From a virus: a stretch of DNA of 33,534 bases. Below the pieces are notes generated by a model that had not been told where the DNA came from, ran no database searches, and worked only from the letters and a program-made list of their open reading frames with translations. The DNA is taken from positions 1 to 33,534 of IMG/VR virus record IMGVR_UViG_3300029787_000181, one strand, 5' to 3'. Positions 1 to 33,534 of the stretch are shown here, in pieces. The position numbers and the translations under genes were made by a program. Within the stretch, counting starts at the first letter, position 1; each line of letters opens with the position of its first letter.

Positions 1-98
1 AAGACAATCTAAAAACAGCGTTGGCGTTTTATGACGCGCAAGAAAAGCTGGCAGGCGATCTTGAACAGCAAAACAACAAGCTAAACGAAGAGGCTTAC
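1..98. repeat. Terminal direct repeat, left copy (assembly overlap of a circular genome)
   Basis: Identical over 98 bases to 33435-33532; the last two bases of the window then diverge (AA instead of TT). The repeat lies inside a continuous reading frame, so joining the ends restores one gene. This is what a circular or circularly permuted phage contig looks like. It does not look like a biological terminal repeat, although sequence alone cannot exclude one. Confidence 0.93.
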
Positions 99-953
99 TT
101 TCTAGGATTTACTGGCAAGCAAACGCTGACTTATGCGGAACTATCTCGCGTTATTCCTGTTGGCTACCTAGATGCAAAGATTGCGGCAAGCTCCGCGCAA
201 GCTGGCTTTGCCATTGTAGATGGTCAGTCAAGAGGGGCTGCAACTATCGGTGCCAGCGCTGCCAAGCGATTGATTTACGACTTTTTAGACGAGCAAAACT
301 ATCTTAGCCCGGAAATGCGTGACAAGCTAAACAGCCAAATCGGCACTAGTTCAAATTTGTCATTTCCTGACACGTCAAATCCAAACGAAAAAACTCGGCT
401 TAACTCACTGGCTAATTTCGGCAAGCTAACAATTTCTGATTTGGAGGAAGCAAAGTTAACACGCAGCTTGTCTGCTCAAGATTACATCATTCTGGAAAAC
501 AAGATCTTTACCAAGAACAACGAGAACGTAAACGAGTTCCTGCGCTTTGCCAAAGCAACCTACAACTACACCGAGGAAGTGGCAGCATCAACTGACGAGG
601 TAAGCGTGGCGATCACAGCCGCCTATGATGCTGTTGCCCAAGGTCTAATTGATTTTGCCATTTTAAACCCTGACGCCACAGCTTCACAAATAAAAACAGA
701 AGGCAATAGTTTAATCCAAGATCAAACAGACGCATTTAATGCGGCAAAACGCGAAGGGTATTTAAGATACCTTGATAACACAGGCGATGGCGCAGTGCCG
801 TTTTCTTTCCCTATAGACCCAGACAATCCCGTGGAAAGCATCCGAGAGTTTATGAGGTCGGGCGCAGTGTTAACAGAGTCGCAACAGGGAATTTTGTTAG
901 GCCGCATTCGCGTTCTTAACAGTTCGCGTTTTAAGGCGCAGTGGCAACAATGA
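1..953 (+). CDS. Internal virion protein, gp15-like position (C-terminal part; gene continues from window end)
   Basis: This is the C-terminal part of the protein that starts at 32603. Across the circular join the frame is continuous and gives about 594 residues in total. The visible segment is soluble, helical and rich in Gln, Asn and Ala, without a membrane segment or recognisable enzymatic motif. Its position between a gp14-like gene and a very large gp16-like gene matches the T7 gp15 slot, an internal core protein that enters the cell during DNA ejection. That assignment rests on gene order, not on recognised sequence. The next gene overlaps its stop as ATGA at 950-953. A TTG at 21 is not a real start; it merely lies in frame near the contig edge. 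Confidence 0.8.
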   Translation, partial: DNLKTALAFYDAQEKLAGDLEQQNNKLNEEAYFLGFTGKQTLTYAELSRVIPVGYLDAKIAASSAQAGFAIVDGQSRGAATIGASAAKRLIYDFLDEQNYLSPEMRDKLNSQIGTSSNLSFPDTSNPNEKTRLNSLANFGKLTISDLEEAKLTRSLSAQDYIILENKIFTKNNENVNEFLRFAKATYNYTEEVAASTDEVSVAITAAYDAVAQGLIDFAILNPDATASQIKTEGNSLIQDQTDAFNAAKREGYLRYLDNTGDGAVPFSFPIDPDNPVESIREFMRSGAVLTESQQGILLGRIRVLNSSRFKAQWQQ

Positions 954-2380
954 CAAATTTCCTTAACACTGACAGAGAAATAGAGCGCTACGACGAGGCT
1001 GAACTCTACGCAGAAACAGCAACGCCTGACATGATAAAAGGCATTCGCTCTAGCTTTAACACTGACACAGGCCGCACAGATCTGATGGCACCGTTGCCAT
1101 CTGGCGGCTTTGTTACGTTGGCAAGCGAAGCGCCAGAGATTATGATGGAAGCGCCAGCCATGCCGGGTATGGGCGCTGATGCAGCACTGCCTGTTGAAGA
1201 TGACGAGTTCCAACTGCAATCAATCAGGAATTACGCAGCCAGCGGCGCAAACATATCGTCACGCGATGATTATCTGGCGGCTGGCTATAGTGATCAACTG
1301 ATCGATGCGTCTGGCGTTATGGGCGAAACCCAGCAAAAGTCAGTCAGCATTGAGCCGTTATCAACCACCGAGATTGAGGACATCTTATCTAAAGGCGGGA
1401 CAGTCTTTCAGAACTCTGACCCCACCATGCGCGAGAACGGCGCAGCAGCGCTTACCGAGACATTGATTGAATTGCGCGTGGATGAGCGCCGCGAGGAATT
1501 AATGGCGCAAGGCGTAGATACTGCCGAGATCAGCCGCATCATAGCATCAGAGCAACCAGAAATGCGGTCACTGTCAGAGAACTTGGCAGATGCTGTGTTC
1601 GGCAACAAAAACGTGCTTGGCACCGGGGTGGGCGATTTTGTCACCGCAGGCGTCATGGATATGCAAGAGGGCTGGCGCATGTATACTGATGCGCTGCGCA
1701 ACGACAGCCCTGCCAACCGGGCGCTGGGCGTGTTGCTTATGGCGGCTGGCGTAGCAGAGGCCACAGGCGTTGGCATGGTCTTAGGCAAGACAATCAAGAA
1801 AAGCATCCCCATGATGCAGAGCGCATTGCTGAAGGCTGGCCAAAACGCAGAGTTGCGTATGGCAGAACGTGGCCCAGCTGTTGACTTTCTATCCAGCACC
1901 ATGATGTCTGGTGTTGACCCGACAATAGTCACAGATCCACTGGTGGCGGCTGCTGGTCGGGCTGTGGGGGATGGAGAGATGTCTAGCAAAGCACAAGATG
2001 CTGCAAGTAAGTTGTTTCGTGTTTACCACGGTGGCCCTGAAAAAATAACTGTACCTGAGATGCGTTCTGATCCAGAGGGCTTACCTTTGGGCTTTAGTGT
2101 TACGCCAGATAAAAATATTGCAGAAACTTACCAAGGGAAAAAAGGCGCAGTTTCAAGTTTCGATATAGATTTGCAAAACGCAAAAATAATTACGGAAATG
2201 GAATTTTACGACCTTGTTAATAATTTAGAATTAAAATTAAATATTGACGAGGGTGAGGCTTCAGAAAGTCAGATTTCAACAGCTTTGCGCGATGCGGGGG
2301 TTGATGCCATCCAGTACCCCGATTCTGAATTTGGGATTCGCGTTATTAACCCAGATATTTTGACAACAGCCCTAGACTAA
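950..2380 (+). CDS. Virion-associated protein with C-terminal ADP-ribosyltransferase-like domain
   Basis: A 476-residue protein. The first ~350 residues are acidic and helical, with a hydrophobic stretch at about 245-270 (ALGVLLMAAGVAEATGVGM). From about residue 350 the sequence changes character: FRVYHGGPE (Tyr359, His360, Gly361), then GFSVTPDKNIAETYQG, then DAGVDAIQYPDSEFGIRVIN near the C-terminus. The series YHG, a small residue followed by S-x-(T/D)P, a conserved ETY, and a final G-x-x-x-x-x-(F/V)-x-x-x-P-x-x-I is the layout of ART domains found in phage polyvalent proteins. The DNA of this domain (roughly 2130-2260) is clearly richer in A+T than its flanks. The gene lies between two internal virion genes, so the product is probably packaged and ejected, by analogy with T4 Alt. 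Start chosen at ATG 950 (ATGA overlap); GTG 941, with AAGG five bases upstream, is an alternative. The ART assignment is from pattern, not from a search. Confidence 0.72.
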   Translation: MTNFLNTDREIERYDEAELYAETATPDMIKGIRSSFNTDTGRTDLMAPLPSGGFVTLASEAPEIMMEAPAMPGMGADAALPVEDDEFQLQSIRNYAASGANISSRDDYLAAGYSDQLIDASGVMGETQQKSVSIEPLSTTEIEDILSKGGTVFQNSDPTMRENGAAALTETLIELRVDERREELMAQGVDTAEISRIIASEQPEMRSLSENLADAVFGNKNVLGTGVGDFVTAGVMDMQEGWRMYTDALRNDSPANRALGVLLMAAGVAEATGVGMVLGKTIKKSIPMMQSALLKAGQNAELRMAERGPAVDFLSSTMMSGVDPTIVTDPLVAAAGRAVGDGEMSSKAQDAASKLFRVYHGGPEKITVPEMRSDPEGLPLGFSVTPDKNIAETYQGKKGAVSSFDIDLQNAKIITEMEFYDLVNNLELKLNIDEGEASESQISTALRDAGVDAIQYPDSEFGIRVINPDILTTALD

Positions 2381-2404
2381 CCACCACATCACCAGACTAC
2401 CACA

Positions 2405-2429
2405 AGGGCGCTTTTCAGCGCTCTTTTTT
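2405..2429 (+). terminator. Rho-independent terminator or attenuator inside the virion operon
   Basis: Stem AGGGCGC/GCGCTCT (7 bp with one G-U pair), loop TTTTCA, then a run of Ts at 2424-2429. It lies in the 63-base gap after the ART-domain gene and before the large internal virion gene at 2444, within an otherwise tightly overlapping cluster. Confidence 0.75.
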
Positions 2430-2443
2430 ATTGTGAGGCCCGT

Positions 2444-5400
2444 ATGGCAATAGACCCCCAACAGATCGCAACTGAGCAAACACAGCGCGCGGCGTTGGCG
2501 CAACGTGGCGCGCCTACAGAAATGGCGGGTAGCCCGGAGAATGCCGTGCGTCTGGCTGGCTTGGGCAATTTTATACCGGGGCCGGGTGTTCTATCTTCAA
2601 TAAATAGGCTGGGTAACAGCGTGTCGGTGGATGCTGTTGTGGATACAGTTCCCCCAGCAAGGCCAGCCCCACCCGCCGCAGGGCAAACTCCAGCAGGCCC
2701 AGCCAGCGGCGAGGTAGGTGCAGCCCCAACAGTCACCAGCGATGCCCCAACAATACAGCAGCCATCCCGCGTCCCAACGCCTGCTGAAGTGGGCGTGATG
2801 CAAAACACTGGCGCATATAGCGAAACCGCCACGAAAAAGCTGTTAGCGCCGCAGGTACTCAGCCCGGAAGGCTTAGAGAAATTTAAAGCAATGGGTTACA
2901 AAGCTGACGGCACACCGCCAGAGGCTGACCCGCTCAAGACCGCACAAGAGGCGCTAGACGAGCAAACCGCAGAAGCTATTGACGTAAGCAAGTTAGCACA
3001 GCAAGCGTTAACGGCTGACGAGCGAGGCTTTAAGCCAACCACCGCTGTTGCATCTGAGGAAGCCGCCGACGAGATCCTTGCCGCATTGGCGCGCGATGAG
3101 GCAAACATCAAATCGCTGGCAGATGGCGGTGACTTTAACTTTGACTACATTGACACCGAGGATGACGTTCAAGCGCTAATCACAGGCGTAGGCGAACAGT
3201 TAACTGACGAGCAGTTAATTCTTACTCGCGGCAAAATGAATAAAAACGCCACGATGAATGAAGCGGCTGGCATCCTTGCTGACGAGATTGGCTTTCAGCG
3301 TGAAGTGCTGCGCCGCAAGATTGGCGAAGGTGGGTTTACCGCAGCGCAGTTTGTGGCAGGGCGCACTATCCTAGTAAAATCTGGCCAGACGCTGACAGAT
3401 CTGGCGGCAAAGATAAAAGGCGGCACAGCAGACGCTGGTGATCGCCTACGGTTCAGACGCCAGCTTGCAATCCACAGCGGCATTCAATTGCAGCTAAAGG
3501 GCTTTCAAACAGACGCTGCACGGGCGCTGCAATCTTTTCAGATCAAAATAGATGGCGAGTTAGATTTAGCGCGCTTTAATGAGGAAGCCGCGACAATGCT
3601 GGCCAACGATGGCGATGCAGGCATAACCGATGAACTGGCGAAAAAACTGCTGGGTGCCGTTGAAAAGAATGGCTCATTAAAAACAATCAACACGTTTGCA
3701 GATTTGGGATGGAGCGCCAGAACCAGCCAGATGGTAAGCGAGGCGTACCTTGCCGGGTTACTATCTTCACCAGCTACACAGGTCAAAAACATCGTCGGCA
3801 CCGCAGGCTTTATGTTGTACCAACTGCCAGCAGAAATAATTGCAGGCATGACAGGCTCTGTGTTTCGCAAAGGCCAGCAAATACTTGGCGACTCATATCC
3901 AATTGATCCTGATCAAGTTTATGTTGAGGACGCCATGCTGCGCTTTAAGGGCTGGATGGACAGCTATAAAGACGCCCTGCGCGCGGCATCAATTGCCTAT
4001 AAAACTGAGGTGCCAGCGGGTGGCGTCAGCAAGCTAGACGTGGATAACTACACGGCTGTGCAAGGCGATCCACGATCACAGTCTGTGTTCAGCCGCAGCA
4101 TCACAGACCTTGGCAAGCGCATGAGAATACCGTTTCGCTTGCTGCTGGCTGGCGATGAGTTCTTTAAAACAATCAGCCAACGCGGCGAATTATACACAGC
4201 CGCCAACCGGGCATATCAAGATGTGATCCGCAACGGTGGTACTGTTGTTGAAGCCGAGGACGCGGCAGGCATTGTGTTGCTTGATCCTAGAGCAATATCT
4301 GACCAGCTAGACACCAAAGCAAAGTATGACACTATGCAATCAGATCTTGGCGATTTCGGCAAGTTCACAGGCATTATGCAGCGCGCGCAAATTGGGGGCA
4401 TACCAGTAGGTCGATTTATTCTACCGTTTGCCACAGCGCCAACAAATGACGCATTGCGCACGTTAGAGTTCCAGCCGTTAAATCTTGTGGCTTGGGCTAG
4501 AATATTTGGCAACAAAGGCACACCAGCAGAACGTCAGATGGCTTTTGGCAAGATGGCTGTCGGCAGCGCTGTCATGGGTGTTTTTGCTCTTGACGCTATG
4601 GAGGGCCGTATAACTGGTGGCTATCCCAGCGATAAAAAGCTGCGCGATGCATTGCCCCCCGGCTGGCAACCTTACAGCTACGTTACCAAAGGCGAGGGTT
4701 TTCCAGAAGGCTTGCCGCTTTATGATCAGTACGGCGTTCCAAACGGGCCGCTGAACTATACGTCATATAATGGATTTGGCCCTGCCAGCACATTAGTTGG
4801 CTTGACCGCCAACGTGTTGCAAAACGCAGTAAGAACGCGCGACCCGGAACTGCAGGGCGCATATATATCGGCTGCTGTGTTGGGCGCTGTTGATTACTTT
4901 TCAGAACTGCCAATGCTGCAAGGCGTGGCTGACATTCAAGAAATGATTGATCAGGCCAAACGCGGCGATACCGCTGGGGCAGTTGCACAGTTTGGGCGCG
5001 GCCCTGCTGAAGCTGCCACACCGATTGGCGTTCCTAACCCGTTAAGCGCAGCCCAGCGCGCTATTGCCAGAGTAAACGACCCTACTGTGGTCAAGCCCAA
5101 GGATGACATTGAATACTACACAATGGAAGACATGGCGCTGGTGGTTGATAACCCGGACGGCACCAAAAGCTGGAAATATGATCTGTACGGTGAGCCAGAT
5201 TGGGCGCGTGTTGGTACGCCTAAGAATGACGAGTGGGCATGGATGCATTCGCTGCTGGGCAAGCTGGATGCGCTGCAAAGCAAAGACAGCGTGTTTGGGC
5301 TGATACCCGGCGTAGAGGGTGAGCGCGATAAGAACACCATAGTCTATGACACGCTAGGCAATGCGCGCGGCGCTGATGCGTTTAGCTTGGCAAACAATCC

Positions 5401-5833
5401 AAAGATGGCGATCTTTAACAACGTGTCTGGCATTAAGATCACACCCGGCAAATCACCCACCATCTTAGAAGCTGAGTTGATCAGGCTGTCCACTATAGCC
5501 AGAACATGGCCGCTGACCAACAAAGAGCAAATGGAAGGCATCCAATTGTCTTTTGGCGATCAGATGCAACTGGTTAATCAAGCAAAGAACATTACTCAGG
5601 TTCGGAAGTATGACGATCTGACATTCCGCAAGGCGCTCAGTAAACTGGTGCAGGACGATCCATATTTGGAAAGCACCACTAAGGAAAAGCTGACGTTAAT
5701 ACGCAAGCTAAACAATGATTATTTTGAGCAAGCGTTTAACGAAATTATAAACAGACCAGAAAACCTAAAAGTGAAAAACGCCGTGCTTGGCAGGAAAGAA
5801 GCGCAAAAGATACTTGAGAGAGGCAACCAATGA
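2444..5833 (+). CDS. Large internal virion (ejection) protein, gp16-like
   Basis: At 1129 residues this is the largest protein of the phage. The N-terminal ~110 residues are Pro/Ala-rich and low complexity. A central block around residue 435 contains LAGLLSSPATQVKNIVGTAG and a following hydrophobic stretch; the 'LLS-x-PATQ-x-x-N' pattern recurs in large podoviral internal proteins and polyvalent proteins. A second hydrophobic patch lies near residues 700-720. I see no lysozyme/transglycosylase Glu motif of the T7 gp16 type. Size and position (last of the internal protein genes, before the tail fibre) give the gp16-like role: part of the channel for genome ejection. GAGG at 2434-2437 precedes ATG 2444. 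The stop overlaps the tail-fibre ATG (ATGA at 5830). Confidence 0.75.
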   Translation: MAIDPQQIATEQTQRAALAQRGAPTEMAGSPENAVRLAGLGNFIPGPGVLSSINRLGNSVSVDAVVDTVPPARPAPPAAGQTPAGPASGEVGAAPTVTSDAPTIQQPSRVPTPAEVGVMQNTGAYSETATKKLLAPQVLSPEGLEKFKAMGYKADGTPPEADPLKTAQEALDEQTAEAIDVSKLAQQALTADERGFKPTTAVASEEAADEILAALARDEANIKSLADGGDFNFDYIDTEDDVQALITGVGEQLTDEQLILTRGKMNKNATMNEAAGILADEIGFQREVLRRKIGEGGFTAAQFVAGRTILVKSGQTLTDLAAKIKGGTADAGDRLRFRRQLAIHSGIQLQLKGFQTDAARALQSFQIKIDGELDLARFNEEAATMLANDGDAGITDELAKKLLGAVEKNGSLKTINTFADLGWSARTSQMVSEAYLAGLLSSPATQVKNIVGTAGFMLYQLPAEIIAGMTGSVFRKGQQILGDSYPIDPDQVYVEDAMLRFKGWMDSYKDALRAASIAYKTEVPAGGVSKLDVDNYTAVQGDPRSQSVFSRSITDLGKRMRIPFRLLLAGDEFFKTISQRGELYTAANRAYQDVIRNGGTVVEAEDAAGIVLLDPRAISDQLDTKAKYDTMQSDLGDFGKFTGIMQRAQIGGIPVGRFILPFATAPTNDALRTLEFQPLNLVAWARIFGNKGTPAERQMAFGKMAVGSAVMGVFALDAMEGRITGGYPSDKKLRDALPPGWQPYSYVTKGEGFPEGLPLYDQYGVPNGPLNYTSYNGFGPASTLVGLTANVLQNAVRTRDPELQGAYISAAVLGAVDYFSELPMLQGVADIQEMIDQAKRGDTAGAVAQFGRGPAEAATPIGVPNPLSAAQRAIARVNDPTVVKPKDDIEYYTMEDMALVVDNPDGTKSWKYDLYGEPDWARVGTPKNDEWAWMHSLLGKLDALQSKDSVFGLIPGVEGERDKNTIVYDTLGNARGADAFSLANNPKMAIFNNVSGIKITPGKSPTILEAELIRLSTIARTWPLTNKEQMEGIQLSFGDQMQLVNQAKNITQVRKYDDLTFRKALSKLVQDDPYLESTTKEKLTLIRKLNNDYFEQAFNEIINRPENLKVKNAVLGRKEAQKILERGNQ

Positions 5834-7593
5834 CCGTTACGTCAACAAACCAAAAAGTACAGTTCAACGGCGACGGCTCAACTACAGTCTTTGCCTACAA
5901 CTTTAAAATATTTGCCAGCAGCGATCTGTCTGTCATCTTGCGGTCAGCCGCTGGCACAGAGACTGTCCAGCAGCTAACCACCAACTACACTGTCAGCGGC
6001 GTAGGTGAAACATCTGGCGGCAATGTCACGATGGGCACAGCCCCGGCATCAGGCACCACCCTGACAATCCTGCGGGTACAGCCAAACTTGCAAGGGCTGG
6101 ATCTGGTGCCAAACGATCCTTTCCCGGCTGGCAGCATGGAAGATGCTTTAGACAAGCTGACATTTATGGTGCAGACGCATGACGAGGAAATTGGCAGATC
6201 GATCAAGGCATCAAAGACAAACGTCATTGCTGATAGCGAATTTACCGTCAGCGCGACAGATCGGGCCAACAAGCTGTTTAGCTTCGACAGCAGTGGCAAC
6301 CTATCTATCGCGCAGGAGCTTGGGACGTATCGCGGGGATTGGGCAGCAAGCACGACATATGCCGTGCGGGATCTGGTGAAGGACACCAGCACTGGCAACA
6401 TCTTTATCTGCGTTACGGCGCACACGTCCAGCGGATCACAGCCGCTTACCACCAACACAGACAGCGCAAAGTGGTCTTTGATTGTCGATGCTGCATCTGC
6501 GACCACTAGCCAAACAGCGGCGGCGACGTCTGCCACGGCAGCGGCAAGCAGCGCCACAGCAGCGGCTAGTTCAGCAACGGCAGCGGCCAGTTCAGCTACA
6601 GATGCGGCAGGATCGAGCGGGGCGTCTGGTGCGGCCACTAGCGCAACAGCGGCGGCATCATCTGCAACCGCAGCGGCATCATCTGCAACATCTGCGGCCA
6701 GCAGTTTAAGCACATTCCAATCGCAGTATCACGGCGCTGCAAGTTCAGATCCATCTAGCAATCTGTCTACCGGGGATCTGTATTTTAACACGTCCAGCAA
6801 TAGCCTAAAGGTCTACAATGGTTCAGCTTGGGTAGCAGCGGCGTTTGATACCAGCGGCGCATTGATTAACACAAACAACCTTAGTGATGTTTCAAACGCA
6901 GCAACGGCGCTGACAAACCTTGGTGTCAACGCAACCGCCGCTGAAATCAATCTAATTGACGGCGGCACAGCGCGAGGTACAACTGCCATTGCTGACGGAG
7001 ATGGGTTGCTTGTTAATGACGCTGGCACGATGCGTATGACCAACGTGCAAACAGTCAAAACATATATGACGGCTGGCGTTGGAGGTGGTGGCACAGAGTT
7101 TATAGCTTCTTCGGGCGCTATCTCCGATGCAGCTTCAGTATCTTTCACAGGCTTTGACGCAAGCAGTTTTGATCATTACGTCTTTTATATGCAATATGTT
7201 AAGCCTGTATCGGACAGTCAAGAACTTCTTGCCTATGCAAGTACAAATGGCGGTAGTTCTTATGACACCACAAACGGTAATTATCACCAACCAAACACTA
7301 CTGATAGAACCAGTTTTTCTATCAATGCGGGAGACCCTCTAGGTAATGACACAAACGAATACGGCATAAGTGGTCGTTTCTTCGTTTATAGTCCCGCATT
7401 TGCAGCTTACACTTATGCTGAAACTTCTGCCGTTTTAATGACGGCATCAGGCGGCATTCTTAGAACTACGGTATATAATTCAAGCGGATCGGTTTATCTA
7501 AGCACTACTGCTGTAAATGCCATTCAATTTAAGTTTGGTTCAGGAAATATTGCTAGTGGTGAAATCACCATGTTTGGGATTAAGAACGCATAG
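5830..7593 (+). CDS. Tail fibre protein (T7-like N-terminus, Ala/Ser coiled repeats, distinct tip)
   Basis: A 587-residue protein. Residues 1-130 (VQFNGDGSTTVFAYNFKIF, then LQGLDLVPNDPFPAGSMEDA) match the pattern of the T7 gp17 N-terminal virion-attachment domain. Residues ~215-290 are about seven near-heptad units of AAASSAT, as in the collar/stalk repeats of lambda-type side-tail fibres, and probably form a trimeric stalk. Next come a short LYFNTSSNSLKVYNGSAW domain and a tip from about residue 415 (GFDASSFDHYVFYMQY, LAYASTNGGSSYD). The DNA of the tip (about 7110-7590) is A+T-richer than the stalk, suggesting an exchanged receptor-binding module. The gene is translationally coupled to the upstream gene (ATGA). 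Confidence 0.9.
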   Translation: MTVTSTNQKVQFNGDGSTTVFAYNFKIFASSDLSVILRSAAGTETVQQLTTNYTVSGVGETSGGNVTMGTAPASGTTLTILRVQPNLQGLDLVPNDPFPAGSMEDALDKLTFMVQTHDEEIGRSIKASKTNVIADSEFTVSATDRANKLFSFDSSGNLSIAQELGTYRGDWAASTTYAVRDLVKDTSTGNIFICVTAHTSSGSQPLTTNTDSAKWSLIVDAASATTSQTAAATSATAAASSATAAASSATAAASSATDAAGSSGASGAATSATAAASSATAAASSATSAASSLSTFQSQYHGAASSDPSSNLSTGDLYFNTSSNSLKVYNGSAWVAAAFDTSGALINTNNLSDVSNAATALTNLGVNATAAEINLIDGGTARGTTAIADGDGLLVNDAGTMRMTNVQTVKTYMTAGVGGGGTEFIASSGAISDAASVSFTGFDASSFDHYVFYMQYVKPVSDSQELLAYASTNGGSSYDTTNGNYHQPNTTDRTSFSINAGDPLGNDTNEYGISGRFFVYSPAFAAYTYAETSAVLMTASGGILRTTVYNSSGSVYLSTTAVNAIQFKFGSGNIASGEITMFGIKNA

Positions 7594-10275: not shown

Positions 10276-10433
10276 TGTCACTGTATGAGAATATTAACAA
10301 ACGCAAGGCAGAAGGCACGTCAAGATCAAAAGCAAAAAGCACGATCTCTGACAAGTCATACGCGAATATGAAAGCAGGCTTTCCTAAATCAAAGAAAAAG
10401 AAAAGCCTGATGGGCAAGTCAAGTAAAGGCTAG
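10275..10433 (+). CDS. Small Lys/Ser-rich protein of a type common in marine phages
   Basis: A 52-residue ORF starting MSLYENINKRKAEGTSRSKA and ending in KKKKSLMGKSSKG. The opening '(M)SLYENINKRK-x-x-GTSR-SK' followed by 'ANMKAGF' is a pattern I associate with short conserved proteins of marine podoviruses and pelagiphage-like genomes; function unknown. It is coupled by TAATG to the gene before it. It is the last plus-strand gene before the minus-strand block, and its 3' end overlaps the convergent gene at 10430 by four bases. Confidence 0.7.
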   Translation: MSLYENINKRKAEGTSRSKAKSTISDKSYANMKAGFPKSKKKKSLMGKSSKG

Positions 10434-10636
10434 TCAGGCCAATCCATAGGGCGATGCCCATCAAGATATGCTTGTACGAGCCGTACCATGCGTGGGGCTG
10501 GTGGTCGGCTGGTTTTTGCTTCGCTAGGCATTTCCATACGGCGCACCGATTGACCGTCTGTGTCTAACAGACGGCCCAAATCGGACTGCGTAAGGCCCAA
10601 CGATTGCCGAGCTTGTTTAAGCTGTGATGGTGTCAT
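10430..10636 (-). CDS. XRE-family helix-turn-helix regulator (small)
   Basis: A 68-residue protein. LKQARQSLGLTQSDLGRLLD then GQSVRRMEMP is a clear HTH_XRE pattern (helix 2 LTQSDLGRLL, recognition helix DGQSVRRME). The C-terminus is PAPRMVRLVQAYLDGHRP, typical of small alphaproteobacterial XRE proteins. It is last in the minus-strand block and overlaps the end of the gene at 10617 by 20 bases. It could be a repressor or modulator of the lysogeny block, but its terminal position is unusual for a main CI-type repressor. Confidence 0.8.
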   Translation of the reverse strand: MTPSQLKQARQSLGLTQSDLGRLLDTDGQSVRRMEMPSEAKTSRPPAPRMVRLVQAYLDGHRPMDWPD

Positions 10637-11515: not shown

Positions 11516-12619
11516 CTACTTTATTTGAGTAATAGCACCCCCTGTCAGCGCTGCGCGCCTGCTGTATTTCTTTATGTAGCGCTCAATCTCCTTTAATGAT
11601 TCGTGGCCTGTCCACGCGCCGATCTGCACAGATGTTGCGCCAAGTTCTGCCCAGCGGATTGCGCGAGATTTGCGCAAGCCATGTGCTGTGCGCCTGTCCA
11701 GCCCAACGTCACGCGCTTTGCCAGCAAACCAATTGCTGACAGCGTGTTCTGATCGTGACGCGCCTCGTGCTGTGCATAGGTACGTCATGTGCTTGACAGG
11801 CTGGGCATCGATTGCGGCGTGCAGCATTTGCAGATCGCCAGCATCAACTTGCGCAAACGCAGGCAGTGGGCGGTCAAAAGGAATGTCAACTTGGCCACCA
11901 GTTTTGCTTTGCTTGAACGACAGCCAGCCATCCCGCGTAACATGGCCACGGCCCAGCGTGACTGCATCACTACAGCGCGCGCCTGTCCAATATAGTAGCT
12001 CCATTGCCAGCCGGGGTGCCTGATCCAAGCCGTACATCTTGCGGAAATGCTGCACGTCATCCATTGACCACGGCTCATGCCCGTCTGACTGTGCTACCTT
12101 TGCCCGTGCGATGTCAGCCGTAGGATCTGCAATGCCATATTCAGTCATCAAAAATTTAGCGAAGTGCCGCCACATTTTAAGGTGATTGCGTTGCGCATGA
12201 CCGTCGAAACGTGACAGGTCTTTGTTGACGTGTGTTGCCTGCAAGCCTGACACCTGTGCAGCGCCGTACAGATCAATCATGCCTTCCAGCCTCTTGCGCC
12301 GCACAGAGCGTGTGGCAGGGGCTAGAAGGCTAAACCCGTGGCTTGCCTTGTACCCTGCCGCAGCTTCAGCCAGTGATCCCGGTGCAACGCCTGTGTGGCC
12401 AGTGCATGTCGGATCTTGCTGCATCTGGTTCCACAGTGTCAGCGCTTCAGCATAGGATTGCAGAAACGTAGACGAGCGCAAAGGCGCGGCTGGCATTTTC
12501 CAAGCCGCAGGCAAAGCGCCCCGGAATTGCTTGGGTCTAAAGTAGTACCGGTCATGGCCATTCTTGTGCTGGCCAGATCTGTTTAGGTGGCGATACCAAA
12601 CACCTTGTTTGTGTCGCAT
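11516..12619 (-). CDS. int: Tyrosine integrase
   Basis: A 367-residue protein with the complete catalytic set: Arg215 in WTGARCSDAV, Lys239 in KQSKTGGQVDIP, His313 and Arg316 in TAHGLRKSRAIRWAELG, His339 in WTGHESLKEIERY and the nucleophile Tyr348. Residues ~80-175 look like the SAM-like core-binding domain; the N-terminal ~75 residues (HDRYYFRPKQFRGALP) may bind arm sites. It catalyses site-specific integration and, with an excisionase, excision. The start at 12619 overlaps the excisionase-like gene by 37 bases and has GGAGAAGG about 6-10 bases upstream. An intact integrase shows that the phage is temperate. Confidence 0.95.
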   Translation of the reverse strand: MRHKQGVWYRHLNRSGQHKNGHDRYYFRPKQFRGALPAAWKMPAAPLRSSTFLQSYAEALTLWNQMQQDPTCTGHTGVAPGSLAEAAAGYKASHGFSLLAPATRSVRRKRLEGMIDLYGAAQVSGLQATHVNKDLSRFDGHAQRNHLKMWRHFAKFLMTEYGIADPTADIARAKVAQSDGHEPWSMDDVQHFRKMYGLDQAPRLAMELLYWTGARCSDAVTLGRGHVTRDGWLSFKQSKTGGQVDIPFDRPLPAFAQVDAGDLQMLHAAIDAQPVKHMTYLCTARGASRSEHAVSNWFAGKARDVGLDRRTAHGLRKSRAIRWAELGATSVQIGAWTGHESLKEIERYIKKYSRRAALTGGAITQIK

Positions 12620-29617: not shown

Positions 29618-31624
29618 ATGGCGCGATCAGCCCCATCATTCAGCAGCTTTGCAGCGGGTGAAATCAGCCCACTGCTGGAAGGCCGCACAGGTATAGAGAA
29701 ATACCGCGAAGGTCTGGCAGATCTTACCAACATGGTGGTTATGCCGCAGGGCGGTGTGAAGCGCAGACCCGGCACAGAATTTCTTGGCGAGGTCAAATCG
29801 TCTAGCGTCAAAGCGCGCCTGATCCCGTTTCAGTTTAAAACCAGCGACACATATATATTAGAGTTTGGCGACAGCATCATGCGCGTTTACAGAAACGGCG
29901 CTCAGGTGCTAAACGCCACAGCCAAGACAATCACCGCGATCACCAAAGCCAACCCCGGCGTATTGACCAGCAATAGCCACGGTTTCAGCAATGGCGATGA
30001 GGTTTACATCACGTCTGTTGGCGGCATGACAGAGTTAAACGGCAGGAACTACCGGGTTGCCAACAGCACAACCAACACGTTTACCCTGACGGATCTCTAC
30101 AGCACTGCAATCAACACCACCAGTTTTACCACGTTCACCAGCGGCGGCACTGCCACCGAGATCTTTGAACTGGCCAGCCCATACCCGGAAGCTGTGCTGT
30201 TTGATCTGCGCTTTGTGCAATCTGCTGACACGATGTACTTTGTGCATCCTAGCTACGCGATCCGCACCCTAGTCAGATCTGATCACAACAACTGGACGTT
30301 TGCCACACCATCGATCAGCGGATCACCATCGCCAAACCTCAACAATGCATCAGACAACTACCCGTCAGTGGTGACGTTCTTTGAGCAGCGGTTAGTCTTT
30401 GGCAATACAAACAACAACCCGCAGACGCTGTGGTTCAGCAAGAACGCTGACTACCTCAACATGACCACAGGCACTGGCGCAGATGACGCCCTGATATACA
30501 CCATTGCGTCAAACCAAGTAAACGCGATCCGTTACCTGTCGCCAACGCGGGTGCTGACTGTCGGCACCACTGCTGGCGAGTATGTAGTGACGGCAACATC
30601 TGATGGCCCGGTTACGCCAACTACCACGTTAATCAGAAAATATTCGAATTATGGATCTGCCGCTGTTGAGCCTGTGCAAGTTGCTGACGTGACGCTGTTT
30701 GCGCAACGTGGTGGCCGCAAGGTGCGAGAGTTCAAGTTCGCTGGCGATGTAAACACGTCAGGCTATCAAGCGCCTGATATGACGATCCTCGCTGAACACA
30801 TCACAGATGGCGGCATCACGCAGTTTGCTTATCAACAGGAACCCGAAAGCATCATTTGGGCGCTGCGGTCTGACGGCACTTTGCTGGGCATGACATATCG
30901 CCGCGAAGAGGATGTTGTGGGCTGGCACAAGCATGTGATCGGCGGCGTGTTTGGCACAGGTCAAGCGGTTGTTGAAAGCATTGCGCCGTTGCCGACAGAC
31001 ACTGGCAATGATGACCTTTACATGATCGTCAAGCGCACGATTAATTCACAGACCAAGCGCTACGTTGAGGTGCTGAAGGTGTTTGATTTTGGCAGCGTCA
31101 CCACATCTGCATTTTTTGTTGACGGCGGCTTGGCGTACAGCGGATCTGCCACCACCAGCCTGACCGGGCTGTACCATCTGGAAGGCCAGAGCGTGACCAT
31201 CTTAGCAAATGGCGCAACGCATCCTGACGAGACAGTCAGCGGCGGCGGGATCACGTTGGACTACAGCAGCACCACAGCAGCGGTTGGGTATTCGTTCCCA
31301 TCCAATATGCAGACCATGCGGATCGAAAGCGGATCTGAGGACGGCACCAGCCAAGGCAAGCCCAAGCGCATTCACGCTGTCACGCTGCGGTTAAATGAGA
31401 CTGTTGGTATTGAAGTCGGCAACGCTGCTGACGAGTTAGACCGCATCCCGTTCCGCGACAGCAGCATGGCGATGGATCAAGGCATTCCGTTGTTTACTGG
31501 CGATAAGGACGTAGAATTTCGCGGCGGTTATGACAACAACGACAGGATCTATGTGCGGCAATCGCAGGCACTGCCTCTGACTGTGCTGGCGCTGTATCCA
31601 CGCATGAACACATTCGACACATGA
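29618..31624 (+). CDS. Tail tubular protein B / nozzle (T7 gp12-like)
   Basis: A 668-residue protein. PSFSSFAAGEISPLLEGRTG, then LADLTNMVVMPQGGVKRRPG and ARLIPFQFKTSDTYILEFG, is the recognised N-terminal signature of podoviral nozzle proteins. An Ig-like insertion about 105-195 (ITAITKANPGVLTSNSHGFS) is common in marine members. GTTAGEYVVTATSDGPVTPT, VQVADVTLFAQRGGRKVREF and a beta-rich C-terminus complete it. It forms the hexameric tail nozzle under the gp11-like ring. The stop overlaps the next ATG (ATGA at 31621). Confidence 0.92.
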   Translation: MARSAPSFSSFAAGEISPLLEGRTGIEKYREGLADLTNMVVMPQGGVKRRPGTEFLGEVKSSSVKARLIPFQFKTSDTYILEFGDSIMRVYRNGAQVLNATAKTITAITKANPGVLTSNSHGFSNGDEVYITSVGGMTELNGRNYRVANSTTNTFTLTDLYSTAINTTSFTTFTSGGTATEIFELASPYPEAVLFDLRFVQSADTMYFVHPSYAIRTLVRSDHNNWTFATPSISGSPSPNLNNASDNYPSVVTFFEQRLVFGNTNNNPQTLWFSKNADYLNMTTGTGADDALIYTIASNQVNAIRYLSPTRVLTVGTTAGEYVVTATSDGPVTPTTTLIRKYSNYGSAAVEPVQVADVTLFAQRGGRKVREFKFAGDVNTSGYQAPDMTILAEHITDGGITQFAYQQEPESIIWALRSDGTLLGMTYRREEDVVGWHKHVIGGVFGTGQAVVESIAPLPTDTGNDDLYMIVKRTINSQTKRYVEVLKVFDFGSVTTSAFFVDGGLAYSGSATTSLTGLYHLEGQSVTILANGATHPDETVSGGGITLDYSSTTAAVGYSFPSNMQTMRIESGSEDGTSQGKPKRIHAVTLRLNETVGIEVGNAADELDRIPFRDSSMAMDQGIPLFTGDKDVEFRGGYDNNDRIYVRQSQALPLTVLALYPRMNTFDT

Positions 31625-32079
31625 TCCTATATCACGTTGAGCGGCTGAGAGACATCCACGAAGAACTAAAGCCGCTGATTGAAAACCATTGGAAAGAGGT
31701 CGCGCTAAACCAAGGCACGATCAATTTAAACGTCAATTGGGATGCATTTTTCCAAATGGACGATGACGGCAGATTGCATTGCTCAACAGCGCGCGAAGGT
31801 GACAAGCTGGTGGGCTACTTTGTAAACATCATCGTGCCGCACCTACATTATGCGGATCATCTGTTTAGCCACAACGATGCCATTTATGTAGACCCGGCGT
31901 ATCGCAAAGGCTTTACCGCATGGCGGCTGATTAAATTTGCTGAAGAGCAGCTTACAATCGCTGGCGTCAGCGTAATGATGATCAACACAAAAATGCACAA
32001 GCCATTTGATAAACTGCTTCAGCGGCTGAATTTTGTTGGCACTGAAACGATTTACAGCAAGCGGTTGGGAGTAGAATAA
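31621..32079 (+). CDS. GNAT-fold acetyltransferase
   Basis: A 152-residue protein. LVGYFVNIIVPHLHYADHLF supplies the central strand pair, and DAIYVDPAYRKGFTAWRLIK followed by FAEEQLTIAG matches GNAT motif A with the acetyl-CoA loop (R-K-G-F-T-A). VSVMMINTKMHKPFDKLLQR then LNFVGTETIYSKRL is motif B. Phage GNAT genes often sit beside internal virion genes in marine podoviruses; the substrate is unknown, possibly host proteins or the virion. It overlaps both neighbours (ATGA, TAATG-like). Confidence 0.87.
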   Translation: MILYHVERLRDIHEELKPLIENHWKEVALNQGTINLNVNWDAFFQMDDDGRLHCSTAREGDKLVGYFVNIIVPHLHYADHLFSHNDAIYVDPAYRKGFTAWRLIKFAEEQLTIAGVSVMMINTKMHKPFDKLLQRLNFVGTETIYSKRLGVE

Positions 32080-32606
32080 TGGGCGCAACCGCAGCAGTCA
32101 TTGGGGCCGGAGCAAACATTGTTGGCGGCATCAGTTCGCGCAACGCAGCCAACGCGGCAGGCGCAGCAGCGCAGAGGGCAGCTAACTTTAACGCCAGCAT
32201 AATAGAGCGTGACATTGGATTGCTGGCCAGACAGCGCGGCATCATCAATCAAAACTTTGAGATCGATCAGGAACGCGCAGGCGAGGCATTCGAGCGCGAG
32301 GTGCAGGGCGCGGCAAGGGCTGGGTTTGGCTACGCTGGCGTGGATATGTCTAGCGGCACACCGATGGCCGTACTGCAAGCCAACGCGCGTGAGTTCGATT
32401 ACGCAATGAGTGTTGCTGAGTTTAATAACGAGATGACAAACCTACAGATCAGCGATCAGCAAGAGGATGCGCGATTGCAGGCACAGCTTGCCAGAATGGG
32501 CGGCGATGCGTCCCGGTCAGCATACAGAAGCCAAGGCAAGGCCAGCCTAATCTCAGGCTTTGGCAACGCAGCATTAGGCATATCAGGTTCGGGATACTTT
32601 GGATGA
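32079..32606 (+). CDS. Internal virion protein, gp14-like
   Basis: A 175-residue protein. The Ala/Gly-rich N-terminus (TAAVIGAGANIVGGISSRNA, then ANAAGAAAQRAANF) has membrane-active character, followed by heptad-like helices (GLLARQRGIINQNFEIDQER) and GFGYAGVDMSSGTPMAVLQA. Size, composition and place match T7 gp14-like ejection proteins, which insert into the outer membrane. It overlaps the GNAT stop by one base and the next ATG (ATGA at 32603). Confidence 0.85.
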   Translation: MGATAAVIGAGANIVGGISSRNAANAAGAAAQRAANFNASIIERDIGLLARQRGIINQNFEIDQERAGEAFEREVQGAARAGFGYAGVDMSSGTPMAVLQANAREFDYAMSVAEFNNEMTNLQISDQQEDARLQAQLARMGGDASRSAYRSQGKASLISGFGNAALGISGSGYFG

Positions 32607-33534
32607 GAATACCAGTTTACAGATCTGATGCGCAGCGCACCAATGAAGCACCGGGGCGGTCATTCTCTGCGCGTATGGATGCGCGGCCATTCGTTGAGGC
32701 GGCACTGCAAAAAGGCGCATCCACCCGCGCCTTGGCTGACGCTGTTGGCGAATATGCCGAGCAGCGCGGTAAGATGATTGCAGATGCAGAGTATAACGAA
32801 ACAGCATTGGCGTTGGATGAGGAAATCCGCACAGCGACATATGATTTATCCCGGTCAAACGATATTGGTAATATCTTTGATGGAAATAAGCTGTGGGAAA
32901 AGCGGATGAAAAGCATTCAGTCCAACGTTTTGGGCCGAGTGAAAAACAGCAACGTCAGACGCAAGCTAGACTTCAGCTTTAATCAATCGGAAATCCAAAG
33001 CAGGTTCAAGCTGCAAGGCGTAGTTGATGATAAGATCATCAAGCGCGATCAAGCGGCGATTGCTGCAAGGCAGACAAACGCTGTTGCGGCATTGTCTCAG
33101 ATCGGCGCAACTCCCAGTGATTACTATGCATGGTTTGACGCTCAAAACCCTACCATGACTGAAGGCGGCGTAAAGAATGGCAAGTTTAATCCTGCTGCCG
33201 TAAGCAAGGCTAACCTTGCCCAGCGCGTGGATGTAGCGTCAGGATATGTATCCAACCGATATGGCGCTGAACCTACATCAGCAATGAAACTAATCAGTTT
33301 TGTGAATACGCTAGATGAAATGGAAATGCAAAGTAGTCTTAGTCTGGTTGACATAACGACCAGAGCAGGCATTGACGCCTACGCAGCTACTGTGCTGTCG
33401 CAAATCCCAAGAGATCAAGCGCTTAAAATTGTTAAAGACAATCTAAAAACAGCGTTGGCGTTTTATGACGCGCAAGAAAAGCTGGCAGGCGATCTTGAAC
33501 AGCAAAACAACAAGCTAAACGAAGAGGCTTACAA
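32603..33534 (+). CDS. Internal virion protein, gp15-like position (N-terminal part; continues at window start)
   Basis: This starts at ATG 32603, overlapping the gp14-like stop (ATGA). The frame is open to the window end, and position 33455 corresponds to position 21, giving a ~594-residue protein together with 1-953. The N-terminus reads RIPVYRSDAQRTNEAPGRSF, then AALQKGASTRALADAVGEYA, a pattern seen at the start of large podoviral internal proteins. The remainder is helical with Gln-rich segments. No enzymatic motif is visible. The final two bases (AA) deviate from the left-end copy and should not be trusted. Confidence 0.85.
   Translation, partial: MRIPVYRSDAQRTNEAPGRSFSARMDARPFVEAALQKGASTRALADAVGEYAEQRGKMIADAEYNETALALDEEIRTATYDLSRSNDIGNIFDGNKLWEKRMKSIQSNVLGRVKNSNVRRKLDFSFNQSEIQSRFKLQGVVDDKIIKRDQAAIAARQTNAVAALSQIGATPSDYYAWFDAQNPTMTEGGVKNGKFNPAAVSKANLAQRVDVASGYVSNRYGAEPTSAMKLISFVNTLDEMEMQSSLSLVDITTRAGIDAYAATVLSQIPRDQALKIVKDNLKTALAFYDAQEKLAGDLEQQNNKLNEEAY
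33435..33532. repeat. Terminal direct repeat, right copy
   Basis: Identical to 1-98. Removing one copy gives a circle of 33,434 bases. Confidence 0.93.

Follow-up and report, generated by a model that had tools for sequence, protein, structure and literature searches.

A probable podophage ejection-complex protein with exchanged C-terminal cassettes and a putative ART-like tip

The virus record IMGVR_UViG_3300029787_000181 of IMG/VR was analysed over positions 1 to 33,534 (33,534 nucleotides, hereafter the window), centred on a gene at 941..2380 whose C-terminal end had been read from the sequence alone as an ADP-ribosyltransferase (ART) toxin domain on a probable ejected virion protein (the original prediction). 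Whole C-terminal cassettes are exchanged in this protein family after a sharp junction on a conserved trunk. The reading favoured here is of a podophage ejection-complex protein with an interchangeable C-terminal effector port, occupied in the window by an ART-PolyVal-like tip with a non-canonical active site.

Exchange of the C-terminal cassette

The gene and its parts were delimited as follows, with residues numbered from the GTG at 941.
941..2380, + strand: entire gene (trunk and exchangeable C-terminal domain); 479 residues from GTG 941, 476 residues from ATG 950
941..1966, + strand: conserved trunk (residues 1-342), probable ejection-complex protein; 73-96% identity in L002-L008
1937..1966, + strand: swap junction PLVAAAGRAV (residues 333-342), where DNA identity to relatives stops at 1965-1967
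1967..2377, + strand: exchangeable C-terminal tip (residues 343-479, the last 137), ART-PolyVal-like and of a singleton type; PF18760 E 0.014

Relatives on viral contigs (loci with L numbers) aligned to residues 1 to about 345 at 73-96% identity, where the alignment ended. DNA identity to L002, L003, L005 and L006 stopped at 1965-1967, about 35 bases upstream of position 2000, at which the original prediction had begun the domain. Identity to L005 restarted at 2381, one base past the stop codon, at 96%, despite the differing tips, and these limits place the exchanged unit in the window close to 1966-2380. Beyond the junction, L003 and L004 carried an FHGS...GLYFSD...NYVIFDD domain, L006 a GNAT-like segment followed by the same type of domain, and L005 an unrelated chain about 770 residues long. 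Six other pairs were tested, and their flanking DNA was 89-98% identical on both sides of unrelated tips; in exchanged pairs the junction recurred at a LAAAGRA- or NPVGP-type sequence. The start codon in relatives was the counterpart of either GTG 941 or ATG 950. The motif numbers given originally were counted from ATG 950 and are therefore 3 lower than those used here.

Related loci, all from metagenome assemblies, were collected using the gp16-like gene downstream as an anchor. This yielded 76 loci, of which 74 were scanned upstream; 66 of these had the trunk family, and most of the remaining ones were truncated by contig ends. Clustering was done on 75 entries (a few contigs were entered twice; the anchored set held 60 distinct complete proteins). 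The last 120 residues formed 12 C-terminal types, including ART-PolyVal, DUF7178, GNAT-containing and unnamed types, and the first 90 residues formed 13 N-terminal groups, with up to six C-terminal types on one group. Trunks at least 80% identical carried tips less than 35% identical in 66 pairs, and trunks less than 45% identical carried tips at least 85% identical in 108 pairs. The first 250 residues of L082 and L129 were identical and their tips unrelated; L069 and L134 had C-termini 97% identical on trunks 44% identical. The window tip formed a type of its own, with no homologue among the other loci.

Separate acquisition of the domain had been proposed from its A+T richness. The exchange now supports this strongly and on grounds beyond composition, since close relatives have entirely different C-termini past the same junction. 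The guanine plus cytosine (GC) content was 0.41 in the tip versus 0.54 in the trunk. Third-position GC in the tip was 0.33; the other genes had a mean of 0.56 (standard deviation 0.075), and 1.2% of equal-length segments were as low. Because third-position GC is itself this low, the A+T bias of the tip exceeds the effect of amino-acid composition.

ART likeness of the window tip

The motifs first noticed in the A+T-rich C-terminal domain (YHGG, GFSVTPDKNIAETYQG and GIRVINPD) were confirmed, and were located as follows.
2024..2035, + strand: YHGG (residues 362-365), putative ART motif 1 with His363; counterpart of FHGS in sister ART tips
2090-2137, + strand: GFSVTPDKNIAETYQG (residues 384-399, GTG-based numbering)
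2090..2131, + strand: GFSVTPDKNIAETY, putative ART motif 2, in register with the core model of sister ART tips
2294..2317, + strand: AGVDAIQY, counterpart of AGIPGIKY in sister ART tips and aligned by the core model to AGIKGIKY
2333..2356, + strand: GIRVINPD (residues 465-472), last strand; counterpart of NYVIFDD in sister ART tips

The isolated tip was compared with 24,736 Pfam families, and the best was ART-PolyVal (PF18760), with an expectation value (E) of 0.014. Tighter borders gave E 0.018 for ART-PolyVal and 0.2 for DUF3990. The YHGG motif (His in strand 1, xHG) fell within the Pfam match, and the ART match was absent from eight shuffles and from the reversed sequence of the tip. ART-PolyVal is one of the 24,736 models, and both the original prediction and the sister tips had named it beforehand; for this one model the expectation is therefore about 6e-7. 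A core hidden Markov model (HMM) was built from nine sister ART tips with long inserts left out. Among 5,001 sequences, the real tip and 5,000 shuffles of it, this model scored the real tip highest, by a small margin over the best shuffle, and paired GFSVTP with GLYFTD, AGVDAIQY with AGIKGIKY and VINPDIL with VIFDDKL. A MAFFT alignment of the tip with the sister tips put the motifs out of place.

Among the sister proteins, Pfam found ART-PolyVal in L003, L006, L021, L022 and L042, with L022 and L042 at 31.3 bits, above the curated cut-off of 31.2. GNAT was above its Pfam cut-off in L017, and DUF7178 was matched in L034 and L056 at E 1e-25 to 1e-27, with a weak methyltransferase match in L034; both GNAT and DUF7178 also occur in known polyvalent proteins. 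Two disparate effector domains, GNAT and ART, were joined in one chain in L021, where DUF3990 was also matched. The first-motif His was kept in 11 of 13 compared ART tips and replaced by Ser in the other two. Where computable, the ratio of nonsynonymous to synonymous substitution rates (dN/dS) of sister ART tips was 0.08-0.17, and these tips have thus been retained for a function under purifying selection. The ART tips of L094 and L100 read FSGS (His to Ser) with a mutual dN/dS of 0.17, and may be pseudo-enzyme tips under selection. In L037 (5001-6137) the ART tip is shortened by an apparent frameshift soon past FHGS, either a sequencing error or inactivation.

Several observations weigh against an active ART in the window. 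The tip scored 16.6 bits, below the curated cut-off of PF18760. The triad of ART-PolyVal is H-Y-D (PMC5512222); in the core HMM alignment Ser386 stands opposite the Tyr of GLYF, the Tyr position of the sisters (GLYFSDKEAIAEWY), so that the strand-2 Tyr is not kept, and the strand-5 Asp can be placed in two registers (VINPD versus VIFDD). With the Tyr and perhaps the Asp not conserved, catalysis may be absent. Neither alignment of the tip to the sister ART tips by hhalign nor a full-length ART HMM gave a significant result; the core HMM, free of the long inserts, was the only one to place the tip first. The original prediction had named structure prediction of the C-terminal domain as a check; AlphaFold, run on the tip without an alignment, gave a low-confidence model (predicted local distance difference test, pLDDT, 50), and Foldseek returned no ART among its PDB matches, which were noise. 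A sister tip modelled with ten sequences was also of low confidence (pLDDT 46). Since the window tip is a singleton, the dN/dS evidence concerns the sister ART tips only. On this evidence the tip probably has an ART fold. That it catalyses as an ART is possible and somewhat doubtful, because the Tyr of the published triad is Ser. The ART domain of the original prediction thus retains weak sequence support, but gained none from structure.

The closest competitor accepts the trunk and the swap as described and takes the window tip as a non-enzymatic ART-like relic or binding domain, a pseudo-enzyme without ADP-ribosylation. Ser386 and the ambiguity of the last acidic residue point that way, as do the two sister tips that lack the first-motif His and yet show a dN/dS of 0.17; His363 and the order of all motifs are retained, however, and in the ART superfamily other groups use other second and third residues. 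We consider this competitor rather doubtful, though a serious candidate. A tip unrelated to ART, a small domain with chance motif likeness on a trunk whose swapping is real, is unlikely. It would account for the sub-threshold Pfam score, the non-significant hhalign result and the failed fold prediction. It would also fit the lack of homologues: peptide patterns and a degenerate GFx-TPD motif found none in viral contigs, none significant was found in phages or plasmids, and none in solved structures. It would leave to chance that the best of all the Pfam families is one present in the same slot of sister proteins, that the shuffled and reversed controls lacked the ART match, and that the tip came first on the core ART HMM. 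PADLOC gave no named defence or anti-defence match, and NCBIfam returned no hit for the window protein.

Membership of the T4 Alt type was ruled out. T4 Alt is an R-S-E ART (PMC5512222), and His363 lies at the position of its motif 1 Arg; the nearest group, if any, is the H-Y-D ART-PolyVal group. The likeness to T4 Alt drawn in the original prediction therefore holds for the proposed delivery of an ART with the genome, but not for the active site, with His in motif 1 and Ser for Tyr here.

The ejection slot and its proposed function

The genes around the slot were assigned as follows.
32079..32606, + strand: gp14-like internal virion protein; PF24072 T7_gp14 at 27.2 bits (cut-off 27), and phrog_418 internal virion protein
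32603..33434 continuing at 1..953, + strand: gp15-position gene of 594 residues in total, spanning the record ends
2404..2425, + strand: terminator-like hairpin with T-run, between the tip gene and the gp16-like gene
2444..5833, + strand: gp16-like internal virion protein of 1129 residues; phrog_6651 at E 7e-22

Bases 1-98 of the record repeat 33435-33532. The map is accordingly circular or has a terminal overlap, and the gp15-position gene was joined across the record ends. The order of genes (gp14-like, gp15-position, trunk gene, gp16-like, tail fibre) is that of a T7-like ejection cassette, and the gene does lie between gp15- and gp16-like genes, as originally described. By tblastn, the gp16-like gene matched internal virion proteins of pelagiphages, roseophages and cyanophages. 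It matched residues 1015-1169 of phrog_6651, the same family of which residues 162-289 were matched by the trunk variants of L048 (1.8e-5) and L051 (0.016); in these two loci trunk and gp16 resemble the two parts of one internal virion protein that has been split. Against this, the window trunk itself matched no named family, phrog_6651 included. Gene order and the two variant trunks support membership of the trunk protein in the ejection cassette, and hence the earlier placement of the domain on a probable ejection protein; they also support, short of proof, ejection of the trunk.

A different role for the trunk protein, in the tail or in assembly and without ejection, is distinctly unlikely; its variable end would then act outside the host or within the cell producing the phage, for instance to adapt to receptors or to exclude superinfection. 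In favour of such a role, the slot adjoins tail fibre genes, ejection is a prediction from the genes, and in the pelagiphage Skadi a region of hypervariability close to the virion core and tail genes was read as receptor-linked (PMC10504331). The tips, however, look like enzymes that work inside cells (ART, GNAT) and unlike binding domains; ejection proteins have this gp14-gp15-gp16 order, and the matches of the trunk variants are to an internal virion protein. An origin of the tip variants as assembly chimaeras, for which the metagenomic origin of all loci and the conserved flanks as likely mis-join sites might speak, is highly improbable, because individual tip types were found on many independent contigs, joined to both flanks; moreover, flank identity between swapped pairs falls short of 100%, reading frames stay open and dN/dS is low.

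In the effector-port reading, the trunk (residues 1-342) would be structural and the C-terminus an interchangeable effector port, in a slot between the gp15- and gp16-like proteins. Recombination between related phages, at homologous sequence in the trunk and in or near gp16, may swap the whole cassette. The protein would be packaged inside the head, leave it together with gp14, gp15 and gp16, and be exposed to the host cytoplasm as infection begins. There the tip may modify or bind a target in the host; counter-defence or takeover would be the most plausible purpose, more so than killing, and the variety of tips might then reflect differing host defences. The gap from tip to gp16 is 63 bases in the window and at most about 230 in the scanned loci, which leaves little room there for a cognate immunity gene. 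A killing toxin is less likely, because the phage needs the cell and no immunity gene fits into this gap. The wider proposal, that widespread podophages trade at least 12 unrelated domains at one ejection-complex slot, each delivering a different enzyme at DNA entry and shaped by local host defences, appears to us evenly balanced.

The components of this arrangement are each already known, as polyvalent proteins, MuF toxins, mosaic ejection proteins and the hypervariable region of HTVC010P-type phages. Polyvalent proteins of phages and conjugative elements (Iyer et al., 2017; PMC5512222) share with it proposed injection with DNA, a position among virion genes and a common domain pool (ART-PolyVal, GNAT, methyltransferase-like). 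Those are giant multi-enzyme chains; in the window protein a single effector domain can be recognised, attached to a structural trunk, and in these small podophages the exchange affects one C-terminal cassette at a fixed junction. MuF polymorphic toxins of temperate phages (Jamet et al., 2017; PMC5576092) likewise join a conserved phage structural N-terminus to a variable C-terminal effector with proposed delivery by phage. Here there was no MuF match in Pfam or PHROGs, the setting is a T7-like ejection cassette and not that of a head protein in the packaging module, the short tip-gp16 gap has little room for an immunity gene, and the loci are not Firmicutes prophages. A constant N-terminus with interchangeable C-termini among relatives is also the organisation of polymorphic toxins, from which the window differs in having no adjacent immunity gene in the gap. 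Mosaic podophage ejection proteins (T7 gp14, gp15 and gp16) share the gene order, and domain swapping among them is known, in the form of a peptidoglycan hydrolase swapped between gp15 and gp16 homologues (PMC8954989); in the present loci the many unrelated effector-like domains are borne by a gene of their own. HTVC010P-type pelagiphages have a hypervariable region with an internal virion protein, seen as low read coverage (PMC10504331). They are related to the window phage by portal protein (57-62%), and variability of the virion core region had thus been reported before, but interchangeable effector domains were not reported there. A literature search of partial coverage turned up no account of a podophage gene in the ejection slot that exchanges a dozen C-terminal domains.

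The slot would be a defined position in podophage genomes for the exchange of early-acting effectors. If so, new injected anti-host or counter-defence enzymes could be collected by position, not homology, and effector exchange could account for the hypervariable virion-core region of HTVC010P-type phages. Near-identical trunks with different tips offer natural experiments.

Counterparts of the slot and other genes

In the same slot, Pelagibacter phage HTVC028P has gp34 (L139:2733-5597), a hypothetical protein of 954 residues. Similarity of gp34 to the trunk was not detected; Pfam and PHROGs gave no match for it, and phage records contained no relative. It may be another carrier of an effector, in this case from a cultured phage. 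In roseophage CRP-125 the slot holds no gene.

No relative of the trunk or of gp16 was found in 84,980 species genomes, so that no prophage and no host could be assigned. The tail fibre gene (5830-7593) begins with a T7-type N-terminus; it also has a stretch of alanine/serine repeats near 6480-6710 and a weak carbohydrate-binding match. A GNAT acetyltransferase-like gene (31621-32079) lies directly before gp14, an arrangement also seen in HTVC028P. A tyrosine integrase gene (11516-12619, - strand; Pfam E 1.6e-9) and a small helix-turn-helix-like open reading frame (10430-10636, - strand) suggest a temperate phage.
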